From contig CP070633.1 in the NCBI GenBank assembly GCA_020356085.1, forward strand, positions 1,147,388-1,192,786: DNA of 45,399 nucleotides. The letters run 5' to 3'. A program made the position numbers and the translations under genes. The notes beneath the pieces were generated by a model. It ran no database searches and was not told the DNA's origin. It was given only the letters and a program-made list of their open reading frames with translations. Positions 8,517 to 39,070 of the stretch are shown here, in pieces (within the stretch, counting starts at the first letter, position 1; each line of letters starts with the position of its first letter). Source of the DNA: Candidatus Coatesiibacteriota bacterium. Its GTDB lineage: Bacteria > RBG-13-66-14 > B26-G2 > WVWN01.

Positions 8517-8545
8517 TTTACGCGACCACCGTTTTCTGTTATAAA
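8517..8545 (+). promoter_or_regulatory. Probable promoter of lnt (leaderless)
   Basis: TTTACG (8517-8522), 17 nt, TATAAA (8540-8545). The -10 box ends 9 nt before the lnt ATG at 8555 and no ribosome-binding site fits in between, so the transcript probably starts at or next to the start codon. Confidence 0.5.
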
Positions 8546-8554
8546 TACGGCTAC

Positions 8555-10126
8555 ATGGGACCGTCGTACGGCACCTCGCCCCCAGCGCCGCGGAAGCTTA
8601 CCTCCCGCGATTACTTGCTCGCGATTTTCGCCGCCGCGGCGTTGACGCTGGCGTTTCCCCGCTTCGACGTGGAACCGCTGGCGTTCGTCGCGCTCCTCCC
8701 CCTCTTCTTTGCGCTGGAGGGGCTGACCGCCCGCCAGGGCGCGTGGCTCGGATTCGTCTTCGGCCTCCACTGGAACGTATTCCTTTTATACTGGCTTTCG
8801 CCGGCGACGACGCCCGGGTTCTTGAGCGCGGTCGTCTACTTGGCCCTCTACCCGGCCCTCTTCGCCTTCCTGTACGTGGCCGCGCGGCGCCACGGCAACG
8901 TCCCTACTCTGCTGGCCGCGCCGCTGCTCTGGGTCGCCGTCGAGTGGCTACGCTCGCAAGGGTACCTCGCCTTCCCGTGGGGGCTGCTGGCCCACACGCA
9001 GTACAAATGGAACTTGTTTATCCAGGTGGCCGACCTGGCGGGCGCGTGGCCCGTTTCGCTCGCGGTCGTCGCGGTCAACGCGCTCGCGTACCACGTCCTT
9101 AAGAATCGGCGCCAGGTCGCGACGTGGCTTCGCGCCGGAGGCGCCGTCGCCGGCCTTTTGGGCGCCTTTTGCCTTTACGGCGCGCTCGCCCGCGTCTCCC
9201 CCCACGAGGGGTCGCCGGTCCGCCTCGCCGTCTTGCAACCCAATATCGACCAGGACGTCAAATGGGATCCCGCCTACCGCGACGAAACGATACGGATCCT
9301 GGCGGACCTGAGCTACGAGGCCCGGCGGGAAGGAGCCGAGTTCGTCGTCTGGCCCGAAACCGCCACGCCTTTTTATCTGTTCGAGAATTACTACTACGGC
9401 AATCTCGTGTGCGAGCTGGCGACGGATATGGACGTCTACCTCCTTACCGGAACGGTCGAGCGAAAACCCCGCCCCGACGTAATCCGGGGAAACGACCATT
9501 ACCGCTACAACGCCGCGGCCCTCCTCACGCCTGGCGGCGACGTTGCCGGCCGCTACGCCAAAGTCCGCCTAGTCCCCTTCGGCGAACATATCCCCTGGGA
9601 GGCGGACCTCCCGGCGCTCTCGAATACGCTGTTCGCCAATTCCGGCGACTTTACGCCCGGGCCGGGGTGGGAGGTCATGCGCGCGCGCGACTTCGACTTC
9701 GGCTGCTCCATTTGCTACGAAATAATCTTCCCGGACATTTCCCGGGAGCAGACTCGCCGCGGCGCCGACTTCCTCGTTAACCTTACCAACGAGGCCTGGT
9801 TCGGCCGGACCAACGCGCCGTACCAGACGCTGGCGGCGGCCGTCTTCCGGGCCGTGGAAAACCGGTCGTGGCTCGTCCGCTCGGCCAACACCGGCGTAAC
9901 GTGCTTTATCGACCCTAACGGCCGCGTCGTGCGGAAATCGAAAATTTACGTCCGTAACCAACTGACCGATTACGTTTACCCGCGCCAGTACCTCACGTTC
10001 TACGCGCGCGCCGGCGACTGGTTCGCGTACGGCGTAGCCGCAGCCGCCGCGCTGATTACCGGGTGGACGTTGTACTGCGGCCTCCGGTCAATTCGGCTGT
10101 CACGGCGCCGTCGCGGCCGCGACTAA
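8555..10126 (+). CDS. lnt: Apolipoprotein N-acyltransferase Lnt
   Basis: A 523-aa inner-membrane enzyme that adds the third acyl chain to the N-terminal cysteine of lipoproteins. The N-terminal ~200 residues hold several membrane helices (starting DYLLAIFAAAALTLAF). The C-terminal nitrilase-type domain (about 220-490) carries the catalytic triad: Glu in WPETATPFY, Lys in YAKVRLVPFGE and Cys in CSICYEIIF. A last hydrophobic helix follows. The frame is open back to 8465, but that part would overlap the divergent tRNA promoter and is not family-like. The ATG at 8555 is therefore preferred, apparently leaderless. It fits the several lipobox proteins in this window. The CreD-like gene follows after 35 nt. 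Confidence 0.95.
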   Translation: MGPSYGTSPPAPRKLTSRDYLLAIFAAAALTLAFPRFDVEPLAFVALLPLFFALEGLTARQGAWLGFVFGLHWNVFLLYWLSPATTPGFLSAVVYLALYPALFAFLYVAARRHGNVPTLLAAPLLWVAVEWLRSQGYLAFPWGLLAHTQYKWNLFIQVADLAGAWPVSLAVVAVNALAYHVLKNRRQVATWLRAGGAVAGLLGAFCLYGALARVSPHEGSPVRLAVLQPNIDQDVKWDPAYRDETIRILADLSYEARREGAEFVVWPETATPFYLFENYYYGNLVCELATDMDVYLLTGTVERKPRPDVIRGNDHYRYNAAALLTPGGDVAGRYAKVRLVPFGEHIPWEADLPALSNTLFANSGDFTPGPGWEVMRARDFDFGCSICYEIIFPDISREQTRRGADFLVNLTNEAWFGRTNAPYQTLAAAVFRAVENRSWLVRSANTGVTCFIDPNGRVVRKSKIYVRNQLTDYVYPRQYLTFYARAGDWFAYGVAAAAALITGWTLYCGLRSIRLSRRRRGRD

Positions 10127-11435: not shown

Positions 11436-11464
11436 TTGCCTCGTGGTTCCGATTCTGCTATAAT
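11436..11464 (+). promoter_or_regulatory. Promoter of the histidine kinase gene (leaderless)
   Basis: TTGCCT (11436-11441), 17 nt, perfect TATAAT (11459-11464). Only 7 nt separate the -10 box from the ATG at 11472, so the mRNA should begin at the start codon. Confidence 0.7.
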
Positions 11465-11471
11465 AGGCGTA

Positions 11472-12308
11472 ATGTTAAACGGACCGGAACCGAACGTCAC
11501 TGCGAAGGAGGCCGTGGCCGACGACGCTGCCGAATGCGCCCAGAACCTGGACGAGGCGCGCGAACAAATCGAAGGGCTCCGCGCTGCCGAGGAGAGGCGG
11601 CAGGACTACCTGTTAACGCTGGTCCACGAATTCCGGAACCCGCTGACCGCGCTGGCCGGCGCCGTCGAAATTCTAAAGGGAACGCTCGCCGACCGCGTAA
11701 ACGCCAAGGAACGAGAGTTTTTCGACGTAGCGGAGGCAAGTCTCGCGCGCCTGCATCAAATGCTCGACGAGATGCTCGAGCTCACCGCGCTCGAAGGCCG
11801 CGCCGTAGAACTCCACTACGACCTCGTAGACGTCGCGGCCCTGGCGCGGGACGTCCTCGGGGAATTCGAACCCCGGGCGAAAGTGTACGACGTATCGCTG
11901 GCCCCCGTGGAGGTACAAGGAGAGGTCCCCGCCGTCGAGTGCGACCCGGGCTTAATTGCACGCGTAATATCGAACCTGCTCTCGAACGGCGTTAAATACA
12001 ACCGCCCCGGCGGCGAGGTGACGGTAACGATTGCGCGCGAGGACGCCGGCCTCCGCCTCGCCGTCGCCGACACCGGCGCCGGGATCGCTCCGGAGGATTT
12101 CCCGAACCTCTTTTCGCGCTTCTACCGCGCGCCGGAGGTTCGACAAAAGAAAATTATGGGGACCGGCCTCGGCTTGACCGTCGCGAAGCGCATCGTCGAG
12201 CTCCACGGCGGCGAAATCACTTTCACCTCGGAACTCGGCGTCGGGTCGACCTTTTCTTTCACCCTCCCCCTCCGTCGGCCGGGGGACGACGAACGCCGTG
12301 AAAGCTAA
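11472..12308 (+). CDS. Soluble sensor histidine kinase
   Basis: A 278-aa two-component kinase with no membrane segment and no recognisable sensor domain. A short predicted coiled coil (about 15-45) leads into the HisKA dimerisation domain with H-box [12 protein letters not shown] (phospho-accepting His near residue 55). The HATPase domain has N-box [11 protein letters not shown]1 DTGAGI and G2 [13 protein letters not shown]. All catalytic motifs are intact. The start at 11472 is supported by a TATAAT box 7 nt upstream; the frame is open back to 11190 but only overlaps the CreD-like gene in another frame. No response regulator lies next to it. E. coli couples CreD to the CreBC two-component system, so the neighbouring CreD-like gene may be functionally linked (inference). 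Confidence 0.92.
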
Positions 12309-12456
12309 ACCGACACCTTCTCCCGTTAGCCGCAGGTCTTTTATCGGCTTGTTGGCCGCGGCCGCGGCTTTCGTCCTCGCGCGCCTTCCGCGCCGCGGCG
12401 AGAAGGGCACGCGGACGACGGCGCGTTTTTGGCGCCGCGTGCCGGGCAGCGGTTAG
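12298..12456 (+). CDS. Small protein with a twin-arginine-like signal (52 aa)
   Basis: A GTG-initiated frame overlaps the end of the kinase gene by 11 nt and stops 25 nt before its terminator. The N-terminal part has SRRSFIG followed directly by a hydrophobic stretch ([11 protein letters not shown]) and then LPRRGEK, the layout of a Tat signal sequence (S/T-R-R-x-F-[LI]). The remaining ~20 residues end in [13 protein letters not shown]. It may be a small Tat substrate, a membrane-anchored micro-protein, or the relic of a longer Tat protein whose 3' part was lost. No strong ribosome-binding site is visible, so it would rely on coupling to the kinase gene. I know no function for it; reality as a gene is moderately likely. 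Confidence 0.5.
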
Positions 12457-12480
12457 CGCCAGAAAGAATAATCGCGGATA

Positions 12481-12509
12481 ACGGGCCCGGGCCGGGCCCG
12501 TTTTATTTT
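12481..12509 (+). terminator. Intrinsic terminator of the kinase/Tat-like unit
   Basis: ACGGGCCC (12481-12488) pairs with GGGCCCGT (12494-12501), then TTTATTTT. The T-run overlaps the stop of the convergent sugar transferase gene. Confidence 0.85.
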
Positions 12510-13210
12510 CCCGAGGGGGGCGGCGGCGGCCGCCGCGTATAGGGGAAGAGACCGGCCACTCGGCCCAAAACCTTGTAAGCCAAAGCGACGGGCGTGTAGA
12601 GGATTAGCAACATGTCTTCCTTAAACGACCAATGGGTAACGTAGGCGAGATCGGAGGCGAGCTTGTCGGCGAGCACGTTCTCGACGTAGTGTTCGTCGAT
12701 GTTGACCGGCGAGAGAAGTTCCTCCTCCGCGATGTACCGCAGCTGCGTCGGGCCGGTCATCCCCGGCCGAAATTGGAGTATTAGCCGCTGTTCGAGCGTC
12801 AGCGTCGACATGAACCGCGGCAAGTCCGGCCGGGGGCCGACGAAGCTCATATCGCCCCGGAACACGTTGATCAGGTTGGGGAGCTCGTCGAGCTTGGCCC
12901 GGCGGAGGAGGCGCCCCAACTGCGTAATGCGCGGGTCGCCGAAACCCGTAATGCCCGGGCCGAGTTTCGGCGCCTCCTGCACCATAGTCCGGAATTTGTA
13001 GATCAGAAAGGGCCGGCCGTATTGGCCGATACGCTCCTGACGGAAGAAGACGGGCCCCGGACTCGTTAGCTTTACGGCTAATGCAATCAGGCCGAACAGG
13101 GGGCCGAGCACCGTCAGGCCGAAGGCCGCGCCGGCAAGATCGAACCAGCGCTTCACATACTTTCGGCCGAACAGGACGGTGGCCGGTTCCACTGCGTTCG
13201 CGGGCGCCAC
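12503..13210 (-). CDS. PglC/WbaP-type bacterial sugar transferase (polyprenyl-phosphate phosphoglycosyltransferase)
   Basis: A 235-aa monotopic phosphoglycosyltransferase that loads a sugar-phosphate onto polyprenyl phosphate, the first step of O-antigen, exopolysaccharide or glycoprotein glycan synthesis. Motifs: the re-entrant helix preceded by KRWFDLAGA, basic-aromatic IYKFRTM, the catalytic Asp-Glu pair in KLDELPNLINV, and SFVGPRPDLP. Only the minimal catalytic module is present, without the four extra N-terminal helices of WbaP. The start is a GTG at 13210, exactly 7 nt downstream of a TATAAT box, so the mRNA is leaderless. The frame is open further upstream, but that part lies beyond the promoter and overlaps thrS. 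It may supply lipid-linked sugars to glycosyltransferases encoded elsewhere in the window (inference). Confidence 0.9.
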   Translation of the reverse strand: MAPANAVEPATVLFGRKYVKRWFDLAGAAFGLTVLGPLFGLIALAVKLTSPGPVFFRQERIGQYGRPFLIYKFRTMVQEAPKLGPGITGFGDPRITQLGRLLRRAKLDELPNLINVFRGDMSFVGPRPDLPRFMSTLTLEQRLILQFRPGMTGPTQLRYIAEEELLSPVNIDEHYVENVLADKLASDLAYVTHWSFKEDMLLILYTPVALAYKVLGRVAGLFPYTRRPPPPPSGK

Positions 13211-13217
13211 ATAATTG

Positions 13218-13246
13218 ATTATAAAGAGGGTACGAGGATAAGTCAA
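13218..13246 (-). promoter_or_regulatory. Promoter of the sugar transferase gene (leaderless)
   Basis: Minus strand TTGACT (13241-13246), 17 nt, perfect TATAAT (13218-13223), 7 nt before the GTG start. It is divergent from the thrS promoter. Confidence 0.85.
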
Positions 13247-13280
13247 TTTTTTCGGCCGCGCCTCCCGCCGCCCTTTCTCG

Positions 13281-13310
13281 TTGACTCTAAATCGCCAATT
13301 TTGATAGAAT
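13281..13310 (+). promoter_or_regulatory. Promoter of thrS
   Basis: TTGACT (13281-13286), 18 nt, TAGAAT (13305-13310). The leader is about 14 nt and contains GAAGAGG before the ATG at 13332. There is no room for a T-box or autoregulatory operator. Confidence 0.75.
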
Positions 13311-13331
13311 ATTACCGAAGAGGTTGTACTG

Positions 13332-15257
13332 ATGGCCAAGATTACCGTATCCGTGGAAGGCTCCGGCGCCGTGGAGGTGCCGAGCGGAGTCACCCTGCTC
13401 GACGTCGCCCGGGCGGCGCAAGTCGAAGACGCCCTGCTCGCCCGTCGCGGCGAGACCCTTGTCGATTTGACGGCCCCCGCCCAGGACGGCGAGACGGTCG
13501 CGTTCCTGACCTACGAGGCGGAGGAGGCGCGAGAGGTATTTCGGCACACCGCCTCCCACCTCCTGGCGCACGCGTTGACGGACCTGTACGACGGCGTTAA
13601 ACTCGCCATCGGCCCCGCGACCGCGGACGGCTTCTACTACGACTTCGACGCGGCGGTTGCGGTCAACGACGACGACTTGCCGCGGTTGGAGGCGCGGATG
13701 CGGGAACTCGCGGAGGCGGACCTTCCGGTGGCCCGCGAGGAAGTCGGTAAAGCGGAGGCGCGCAAGTTATTCGCCGGCAACCCCTATAAACTGGAGCTGA
13801 TCGAGGAAATCCCCGAAGACACCGTCATTCTGTACCGCCAAGGCGATTTCGTCGACCTCTGCCTGGGGCCGCACCTTCCCTCCACCGGCTACGTCAAAGC
13901 CTTTAAACTCACCGCCGTAGCGGGAGCCTATTGGCGCGGCGACGAACGGAACGACATGCTCACCCGCGTGTACGGTACCGCCTATCGCGAGGAGGAGGAG
14001 CTCGAGCGGCACCTGGCGGCGATTGAGGAGGCGAAGCGGCGCGACCACCGGACGCTCGGCCGCGACCTCAGCATCTTCTCCATCGCCGAGGAGCGCGGCG
14101 CCGGCCTGGTATACTGGCACCCGAGCGGCGCCTTCGTCCGCGACCAGATCGAGATCTTCTGGAAGGAGGAACATCACCGGCGAGGGTACCAACTGGTCGC
14201 CACGCCCCACATCGCCCGGTCGCGCCTCTTCGAAACCTCGGGGCACTTCCACTACTTCCTCGATAACATGTACACTTTCGAGGTCGACGGCATCCCGTAC
14301 GTCCTCAAGCCGATGAATTGCCCGATGCACATCGCCATCTACAACTCCCGCGTGCACTCGTACCGGGAACTCCCGATCCGCTACGCCGAACTCGGTACGG
14401 TCTACCGGAAGGAACGCTCCGGTACGCTTCACGGCCTGCTGCGCGTCCGCGGTTTCACCCAAGACGACGGCCACATCTTTTGCACGCCCGAACAATTAGT
14501 GGACGAATTATGCGGGTGCGTGGACCTCGCCCAATTCCTGCTGCATACTTTCGGCTTCACCTCCTACGACGTCGAGCTATCGGCGCGCGACCCGCAACGG
14601 CCCGACGACTACGCCGGAACCGAGGAAGAGTGGATCCGCGCAGAGGAGGCGTTGGCCGAGACCTGCCGGCTTAAGGAACTCGCCTACACCCGGAGAGAGG
14701 GGGAGGCGATATTCTACGGGCCTAAAATCGACATCCAAATCTACGACGCGCTGGGCCGGAAATGGCAAGGGCCGACAATACAATTCGACTTCAACCTCCC
14801 CCACCGGTTCGGCGTAACCTACGTCGGCGCCGACGGCGCCGAGCACCAGTGCTATATGATCCACCGCGCCCTCTTGGGATCCCTGGAACGATTTTTCGGT
14901 ACCTTGCTTGAGCACTACGCCGGCGTGTTCCCGCCGTGGCTTGCGCCGGTGCAACTGCGGTTTATCCCGGTTAACCAGGAGGTCCTGCCGTACGCGAAAG
15001 ACCTGGCCGCCCGATTCCAAGCGGCGGGGTTGCGCGCCGAGGCCGACGCCGCCGACGGAAAATTGGCCGCCAAAATCCGCGCCGGCGAAATGGCCAAAAT
15101 ACCCTACCTCGGCGTGGTAGGGAAAAAAGAACAGGAGGCGGATACGGTCGCTCTTCGCCGCCACGGCGGCGAGGACCTCGGAACCGTCGACGCCGACCGC
15201 CTCCAGGAGGCTCTCCAGCGAACCGTAGCCGATAAGTCCGGCACGCTCGAGTTTTAG
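13332..15257 (+). CDS. thrS: Threonyl-tRNA synthetase
   Basis: A 641-aa class II aminoacyl-tRNA synthetase of normal bacterial length. The order is an N-terminal TGS domain (about 1-62), the editing/SAD domain starting HTASHLLAHAL (about 73-220), a catalytic core with motif 2 YRKERSGTLHGLLRVRGFTQ and the zinc-site cysteine in MNCPMH, then motif 3 and a C-terminal anticodon-binding domain ending before residue 641. It charges tRNA-Thr and edits mischarged serine. The start is supported by GAAGAGG upstream. The cyclase-like/AAA/TPR gene follows after 21 nt with no terminator, so the two are probably co-transcribed. Confidence 0.98.
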   Translation: MAKITVSVEGSGAVEVPSGVTLLDVARAAQVEDALLARRGETLVDLTAPAQDGETVAFLTYEAEEAREVFRHTASHLLAHALTDLYDGVKLAIGPATADGFYYDFDAAVAVNDDDLPRLEARMRELAEADLPVAREEVGKAEARKLFAGNPYKLELIEEIPEDTVILYRQGDFVDLCLGPHLPSTGYVKAFKLTAVAGAYWRGDERNDMLTRVYGTAYREEEELERHLAAIEEAKRRDHRTLGRDLSIFSIAEERGAGLVYWHPSGAFVRDQIEIFWKEEHHRRGYQLVATPHIARSRLFETSGHFHYFLDNMYTFEVDGIPYVLKPMNCPMHIAIYNSRVHSYRELPIRYAELGTVYRKERSGTLHGLLRVRGFTQDDGHIFCTPEQLVDELCGCVDLAQFLLHTFGFTSYDVELSARDPQRPDDYAGTEEEWIRAEEALAETCRLKELAYTRREGEAIFYGPKIDIQIYDALGRKWQGPTIQFDFNLPHRFGVTYVGADGAEHQCYMIHRALLGSLERFFGTLLEHYAGVFPPWLAPVQLRFIPVNQEVLPYAKDLAARFQAAGLRAEADAADGKLAAKIRAGEMAKIPYLGVVGKKEQEADTVALRRHGGEDLGTVDADRLQEALQRTVADKSGTLEF

Positions 15258-38244: not shown

Positions 38245-39009
38245 CTAGTAAATCTCGGCCGGGATACCCGCCTCCTCGCACACCCGACGAGCGATGCCCG
38301 CCAACCGCTCCCGCGGCACCATCCGGACGCCGGCCCGCGCCACCGGCCTATCCGTGGTGTAGATCTGTACCGCCGCCGGCCGGACGATTCCCACGATCCG
38401 AACGTAATCCGCGACCGCCCCGTCGTCGGCGTTCCCCGGGTTATCGGCCACAAAGCACGATTGGGCGACGAAGTGCTTCATCGCCTCCAGGCCGGCCACG
38501 ATATCCTCGAACTTCACGCCCGGAGCCGGAACGTTGATCGCCTCGAACGCCGCCGCCGAACCGACGTCGAGTTTCATAATCGGAAGGTCCACCCGCGCCA
38601 GCGCGGCCCGCGTCCGCTCCTCGCCCACCATACTCGAGTTGGAGAGGACCGCCACCTTCGCCTCCGGGCAGAGCCGGTCTCGTACGTCACGTACAGCCTC
38701 CACGATCGCGGGGAACTCCGGGTGGAGCGTCGGCTCGCCGTTCCCCGAAAACGTTAGGTAGCCGGGAGGGTCGATCCCGGGGAGGGCGGCCGCCAACGCC
38801 TCCGCCACCTCGTCGCAGGAAGGGAACATGTCCTCCGCCCCCGCGGCGGAGGCGAGATGACGGGTCGTCGGGCCGTACTGGCAATAGACGCAATCGAACG
38901 AACAGACGTTGGCCGTCGTGGAGGAGAGGTTAATCCCCAGCGACGGGCCCAGCCGGCGGGAGGCGATGGGGCCGTAGATAATGGTTTTTTGGAGCTCGAG
39001 CACGGACAT
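38245..39009 (-). CDS. Radical SAM protein (COG0731-like)
   Basis: A 254-aa radical SAM enzyme. The CX3CX2C cluster motif is CSFDCVYC (Cys36, Cys40, Cys43), preceded by YGPIASRRLGPSLGINL, the usual lead-in of the COG0731 (tRNA wybutosine TYW1-like) group. The SAM-binding GGE-like motif is SGNGEPTLHP. Its substrate is unknown. The frame extends upstream past 39009, but the M-S-V-L-E-L-Q start at 39009 fits the family. A TATATC box 8 nt upstream on the minus strand could make it leaderless, but no good -35 is present. It is divergent from the DUF6485 gene, with 61 nt between. No terminator was found in the 4-nt gap to the convergent ATPase gene. Confidence 0.9.
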   Translation of the reverse strand: MSVLELQKTIIYGPIASRRLGPSLGINLSSTTANVCSFDCVYCQYGPTTRHLASAAGAEDMFPSCDEVAEALAAALPGIDPPGYLTFSGNGEPTLHPEFPAIVEAVRDVRDRLCPEAKVAVLSNSSMVGEERTRAALARVDLPIMKLDVGSAAAFEAINVPAPGVKFEDIVAGLEAMKHFVAQSCFVADNPGNADDGAVADYVRIVGIVRPAAVQIYTTDRPVARAGVRMVPRERLAGIARRVCEEAGIPAEIY

Positions 39010-39016
39010 CGCCCGA

Positions 39017-39025
39017 TGATATAAT
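39017..39025 (+). promoter_or_regulatory. Extended -10 promoter of the DUF6485 gene
   Basis: TGATATAAT (TGn + TATAAT, 39017-39025). No clear -35. The predicted leader is about 40 nt. A minus-strand -10-like TATATC for the radical SAM gene overlaps it. Confidence 0.5.
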
Positions 39026-39070
39026 AAATCCAGGCCGCGAACAACCATAAAGAACGGGGGTTCTACTGCT

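Follow-up and report, generated by a model that had tools for sequence, protein, structure and literature searches.

A minority of the genes in this genome would, with a probability of a little under nine in ten as judged from the sequence, be leaderless and transcribed from sigma70-type promoters that lie 6-8 nt upstream of their ATG or GTG start codon, and most of the others would be leadered. The promoter layout, the in-frame start codon and a spacing between them that is conserved while the letters diverge are seen directly. RNA polymerase normally initiates 6-8 nt past the -10 box, so the mRNA should begin at the start codon or within one or two nucleotides of it, with no room for a Shine-Dalgarno (SD) sequence, and the ribosome would take up such an mRNA at its 5' terminal AUG or GUG by the leaderless route. 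We infer this transcription start and this route of ribosome loading for about 3% of comparable genes, in which the -10 hexamer of an ordinary sigma70-type promoter ends 6-8 nt before the start; most other genes would carry leaders, many of them with an SD sequence. Among the genes of the window, a sugar transferase and a radical SAM gene fit the prediction; lnt may do so, and a histidine kinase (HK) probably does not.

The window is the whole stretch of 45,399 nt that was analysed, positions 1147388-1192786 of a single-record genome of 2,344,902 bases (G000). It was compared with three congeneric genomes (G001-G003), with G004, which shares the order but not the family, and with nine further members of the phylum. 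Genes in G000 were called with a hexamer model in 60 stretches of 20 kb, spaced evenly along the genome, which gave 1027 genes. For a test of conserved spacing between orthologs, genes were called in 1.23 Mb of G000 (the window and 59 of the 60 stretches, with about 3.6 kb present twice), 0.79 Mb of G002 and 0.40 Mb of G003 (about 52%, 27% and 15%), which gave 579 reciprocal-best pairs (333, 155 and 91) among these three same-genus genomes, in 458 families. A promoter was taken as a TAnnnT box at most two changes from TATAAT with a -35 box at most three changes from TTGACA and at most four changes in total, and a pair was counted when both partners had such a promoter at an equal distance (±1 nt) before an in-frame ATG or GTG. 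All in-frame start codons close to the N-terminus in the alignment were tried, so that the test, the strongest of those made, depends little on start prediction.

A conserved promoter 5-9 nt before an in-frame ATG or GTG was found in 19 of the 579 pairs and 15 of the 458 families (3.3%), with no pair at 0-4 nt and one at 10-14 nt. When partners were shuffled, the mean at 5-9 nt was 0.42 pairs (50 shuffles); no pair was found in frames +1 and +2, nor when TTG, CTG or RTC took the place of ATG/GTG. Under all five thresholds tried the peak stayed at 6-8 nt, with 5 to 28 pairs at 5-9 nt and shuffled means of 0 to 2.3. The -10 box belongs to a full sigma70-type promoter, being 95% identical between partners and preceded at about 17 nt by a -35 box that is 89% identical, and identity is 51% in the 17-nt spacer, 56% between the -10 box and the start and 49% in the 20 nt further upstream. 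To judge from these comparisons, selection maintains the distance from the -10 box to the start and not the intervening letters.

The start codon at the conserved sites is ATG in 19 instances and GTG in 13, and an SD match of at least 4 nt accompanies 2 of the 32. The share of GTG (13 of 32, compared with 105 of the 473 ATG/GTG starts at consistent pairs) gives p 0.03, for instances that are not independent. TTG is absent from the ortholog test although it is the start in 55 of 528 consistent cases, and when it replaces RTG in the whole-genome pattern described below it gives 10 matches with one long coding frame, compared with 40 of 53 for RTG, the matches not being independent. Among the 15 families, that of a GidB homologue (L119) has a near-identical promoter-to-start stretch and a GGAG in the relatives, and may be SD-led. 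Three of the conserved, predicted leaderless genes encode beta-propeller proteins with NHL or PQQ repeats (Table 1), which is too few to speak of a bias.

It could be argued that TATAAT-like boxes fall near starts by chance, upstream regions being richer in AT than a genome of 64% GC, and that the striking cases were simply picked. The bare counts are what such an explanation predicts: TATAATN7RTG matches 18 times in G000 compared with 15 times for the reversed control, and TTGAC-N18-TATNNT-N6-8-RTG matches 57 times in G000-G003 compared with 45 with a spacing of 15-17 nt, a modest difference. Since the one shows no excess and the other little contrast with its control, bare counts were not used as evidence, and since the pattern has matches in 38 of 41 genomes it does not single out this lineage. 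The excess at called starts is likewise modest: among 1023 usable starts, relaxed -10 boxes occur 18 times at 6-9 nt and 29 times at 6-11 nt, compared with 24 in 12 flanking positions (p 0.009 and 0.001 respectively, for windows picked post hoc), and this histogram is weak because the coding score places starts only roughly. However, chance is scarcely tenable for two reasons: first, among 159 promoter-like sites, the start codons found 6-8 nt downstream are in the frame of the gene in 9 of 12 cases (one third expected, p 0.004) and in 6 of 6 where the -35 box is good, compared with 6 of 18, the chance level, at 0-5 nt. Second, the 19 conserved ortholog pairs far exceed the shuffled mean, and the other frames and codons yielded none. 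The excess that the earlier note expected of a genome-wide scan at short spacing is thus missing from the bare pattern and present, at 6-8 nt, in the scans that take genes into account.

For 53 of the 57 whole-genome matches the DNA was at hand, and in 40 of these a coding frame of at least 60 aa starts at the RTG; four of the 40 (h26, h31, h34 and h36) are doubtful, for example as probably SD-led or of unconserved frame. Two groups recurring between species, TATAAT..GGTGATATTATG and TATAAT..ACGGAATG with a distance of 6-8 nt, were excluded because their translation probably starts at a later ATG with an SD sequence, and the TATAATGTTAGAGGTG group was dropped for its unconserved frame.

A second objection grants the promoters and denies the leaderless starts: transcription would come from other promoters upstream, the near -10 box being unused or serving one growth condition. 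A second promoter further upstream could indeed give leadered mRNAs of the same genes. Nevertheless, this is very unlikely as a general account, given that both hexamers and the spacing are conserved while the neighbouring letters drift, which argues that the near promoter is used, and that 30 of the 32 conserved sites are free of an SD match. The leaderless reading of these sites stands beside real SD usage in the same genome: an SD match of at least 4 nt precedes 468 of the 1027 called starts, compared with 19% of 13,813 internal codons, and the anti-SD is intact in the 16S rRNA of G001 and G002. It had been claimed at the outset that the organism uses both initiation modes, and this is supported by the 6-8 nt excess, which becomes sharp when conservation between species is required; very probably both modes are in use, with leaderless starts a minority of about 3% beside SD starts.

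Table 1. Positions of the features discussed; positions are those of the window except for the beta-propeller genes, which are given by locus in G000.
Feature	Position	Strand	Basis and remarks
Sigma70-type promoter of the sugar transferase, TTGACT-17-TATAAT	13218..13246	-	Read in the sequence; TTGACT 13246-13241, TATAAT 13223-13218
Bacterial sugar transferase (PF02397, Bac_transf), 235 aa	12503..13210	-	Pfam 2e-55; predicted leaderless GTG start at 13210
Promoter-like site before HK, TTGCCT-17-TATAAT	11436..11464	+	Read in the sequence; TTGCCT 11436-11441, TATAAT 11459-11464
Histidine kinase (HisKA + HATPase_c)	11472..12308	+	Pfam; possible leaderless ATG 11472 (to 11474), rival GTG 11514
Promoter of the radical SAM gene, TTGTTC-17-TATCAT	39016..39044	-	Read in the sequence; weak -35
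Radical SAM protein (PF04055)	38245..39009	-	Pfam; predicted leaderless ATG start at 39009
TATAAA box upstream of lnt, 9 nt from ATG 8555	8540..8545	+	Box and surroundings conserved in G001-G003
lnt, apolipoprotein N-acyltransferase	8555..10126	+	Pfam, run from upstream GTG 8465
thrS, divergent neighbour of the sugar transferase gene with leader and SD (contrast case)	13332..15257	+	NCBIfam thrS 1.2e-195; GAAGAGGTTGTACTG-ATG
Beta-propeller gene	L010:9832-10806
Beta-propeller gene	L181:9495-10589
Beta-propeller gene	L182:7459-8439

Within the window, the sugar transferase is a good example of a predicted leaderless start. The earlier note had read TATAAT, 7 nt and GTG without an SD sequence, which is exact (no SD match of at least 4 nt ends 3-13 nt upstream of this GTG), and the spacing is kept in each of the four genus genomes, at 7, 7, 7 and 6 nt in G000, G001, G002 and G003, the promoter of the three relatives being TTGACA-17-TATAAT in the same layout. 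An earlier start is impossible in G003 because the frame is open for just one codon upstream. In G004 the gene has, by eye, a leader with GAGG. The sugar transferase and thrS genes have divergent promoters (window 13208-13332), about 35 nt separating the two -35 boxes, and a similar divergent motif can be seen by eye in G001-G003.

The radical SAM gene had been described as having a weaker promoter 8 nt from its start; the -35 box (TTGTTC) is weak, and the distance is 6 nt, from TATCAT, not 8. There is no SD sequence, and the distance is 6, 6, 6 and 7 nt in G000, G001, G002 and G003, the promoter being TTGT..-17-TATGAT in the three relatives. For lnt the 9 nt before the ATG were found as claimed, from a box that reads TATAAA, but the short spacing is kept in only two of the four genus genomes (G000 and G003); in G001 and G002 a GTG about 26 nt downstream of the box serves as start, and the lnt start would perhaps have a very short leader or none. 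As to the genes said to have good ribosome-binding sites, this is true of the CreD-like gene (AAGGAGG), DUF3467 (GGAGG) and thrS (GAGGT), and the SD-like sequence of clpC (GGTGA) is weaker.

The HK gene is a different case. Its TATAAT, 7 nt and ATG, without an SD match of at least 4 nt ending 3-13 nt upstream (by eye), were exactly as first described, but the 7-nt spacing is kept in neither of the two relatives in which an ortholog was found. In these, G001 and G002, TATAAT lies 40-41 nt before a start that aligns 10 residues downstream of ATG 11472. This raises the possibility, which we regard as moderately probable, that TATAAT is the promoter of a leadered gene whose true start is GTG 11514, with a leader of about 40 nt and AAGGAGG nearby, and that ATG 11472 is fortuitous. 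Consistent with this, AAGGAGG ends 2 nt before GTG 11514, the coding score slightly favours that GTG (with ATG 11472 within 4 nats) and a TTAAACGG-like stretch past the -10 box resembles, by eye, the leader of G001. Against it, a distance of 2 nt is nearer than is usual for an SD sequence and the same letters encode Lys-Glu, the 7 nt before the ATG are the usual distance for a leaderless start, and the N-terminal alignment is weak and comes from two relatives only. A MAFFT DNA alignment of the upstream regions left the -10 boxes out of register and so was not used. In summary, HK is probably not leaderless.

Beyond the window, several genes keep the layout within the genus. The distance from the -10 box to the start is 6 nt for polA in each of G000, G001, G002 and G003, and 7, 8, 8 and 8 nt for selA in the same order; the layout is also kept in all four genomes for two further proteins, one of 109 aa with no Pfam match and one with a Yip1 domain, and in three for the NAD(P)H-hydrate repair enzyme. 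Outside the genus, selA of G004, from another family, reads TTGACA-17-TATACT-6-GTG, and in seven other phylum members read, selA has no such box at a plausible start. For polA, SD-like sequences stand in place of a near promoter in G005, G008, G009 and G010, and neither an SD-like sequence nor a near promoter was found in G004 and G006. A further stretch of G004 (G004:C1:2134434-2134473) has TATAAT, 8 nt and ATG and resembles the promoter and start of the 109-aa gene, of which it may be the ortholog.

The polA gene also bears on the state of the genome record. In G000 it (L245:1580-2233 = G000:C1:2170979-2171632) seems to stop after the 5' nuclease, where the record enters a stretch of N, and beyond this a methionyl-tRNA-synthetase-like frame on the opposite strand is seen by eye; this appears to be a scaffold gap and not a split gene. 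Given the 13,465 N across the 60 sampled stretches (1.2 Mb), the record is a gapped scaffold, and gaps of this type may explain the 78% completeness of G000. No 16S rRNA was matched in G000, and one was found in 10 of 15 genomes searched; that of G000 was probably lost in the gaps. The thrS of G000 has at most 55% identity to any among the best 80 named relatives.

The phenomenon would be a known mechanism, ordinary among bacteria, found here as a minority mode in another lineage. Leaderless genes behind a -10 box occur in many bacteria, with group averages given as 2.4 to 39.4% where present, and are described as conserved among relatives and as replaced by SD starts, or replacing them, the more often the greater the distance (Zheng et al. 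2011, PMC3160421). The TA-led genes of that survey resemble the present ones in having a -10-like box about 10 bp upstream of the point where transcription and coding begin, in being a minority beside SD genes, and in being kept among close relatives and exchanged with distance. The share of about 3% is usual among published bacteria, lying within the ranges given there for Spirochaetes (1.8-6.9%) and Firmicutes (2.4-16.6%) and far below the averages for Actinobacteria (19.2%) and Deinococcus-Thermus (39.4%); the present lineage, unlike the groups of that survey, is a deep branch. Deinococcus-Thermus (PMC12340547) offers a further likeness, a TANNNT motif about 6-7 bp upstream of the ORF and conserved across a genus, but in D. 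radiodurans it concerns nearly one third of the genes and is backed by experiments, whereas in the present lineage it concerns a few per cent, with clear -35 boxes. In mycobacteria, ATG or GTG is reported to be needed at the mRNA 5' end (Shell et al. 2015, PMC4633059), a rule that the absence of TTG here may reflect. The use of ATG or GTG is shared with the present starts, as is conservation between species despite variation near the start; the mycobacterial starts were mapped by RNA-seq, ribosome profiling and reporters, and the present ones are predicted from sequence.

A more ambitious reading is that a small, stable gene set (the sugar transferase, radical SAM, selA, polA, the 109-aa protein, NAD(P)H-hydrate repair and others) is kept leaderless by selection on spacing in order that its translation can be switched independently of the SD genes, for example in stress or starvation. 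This is unlikely; if true, selA would have been leaderless since before the split of two families. For the practice of annotation, the starts of leaderless genes are open to error, as for the sugar transferase, whose start the coding-score caller placed 6 codons downstream of the conserved GTG. Demanding that spacing be conserved between ortholog promoters can find leaderless genes in draft genomes that come without RNA data, and works where bare pattern counts fail. With the genes so found, an uncultured lineage would join the bacteria that have a small conserved set of leaderless genes.
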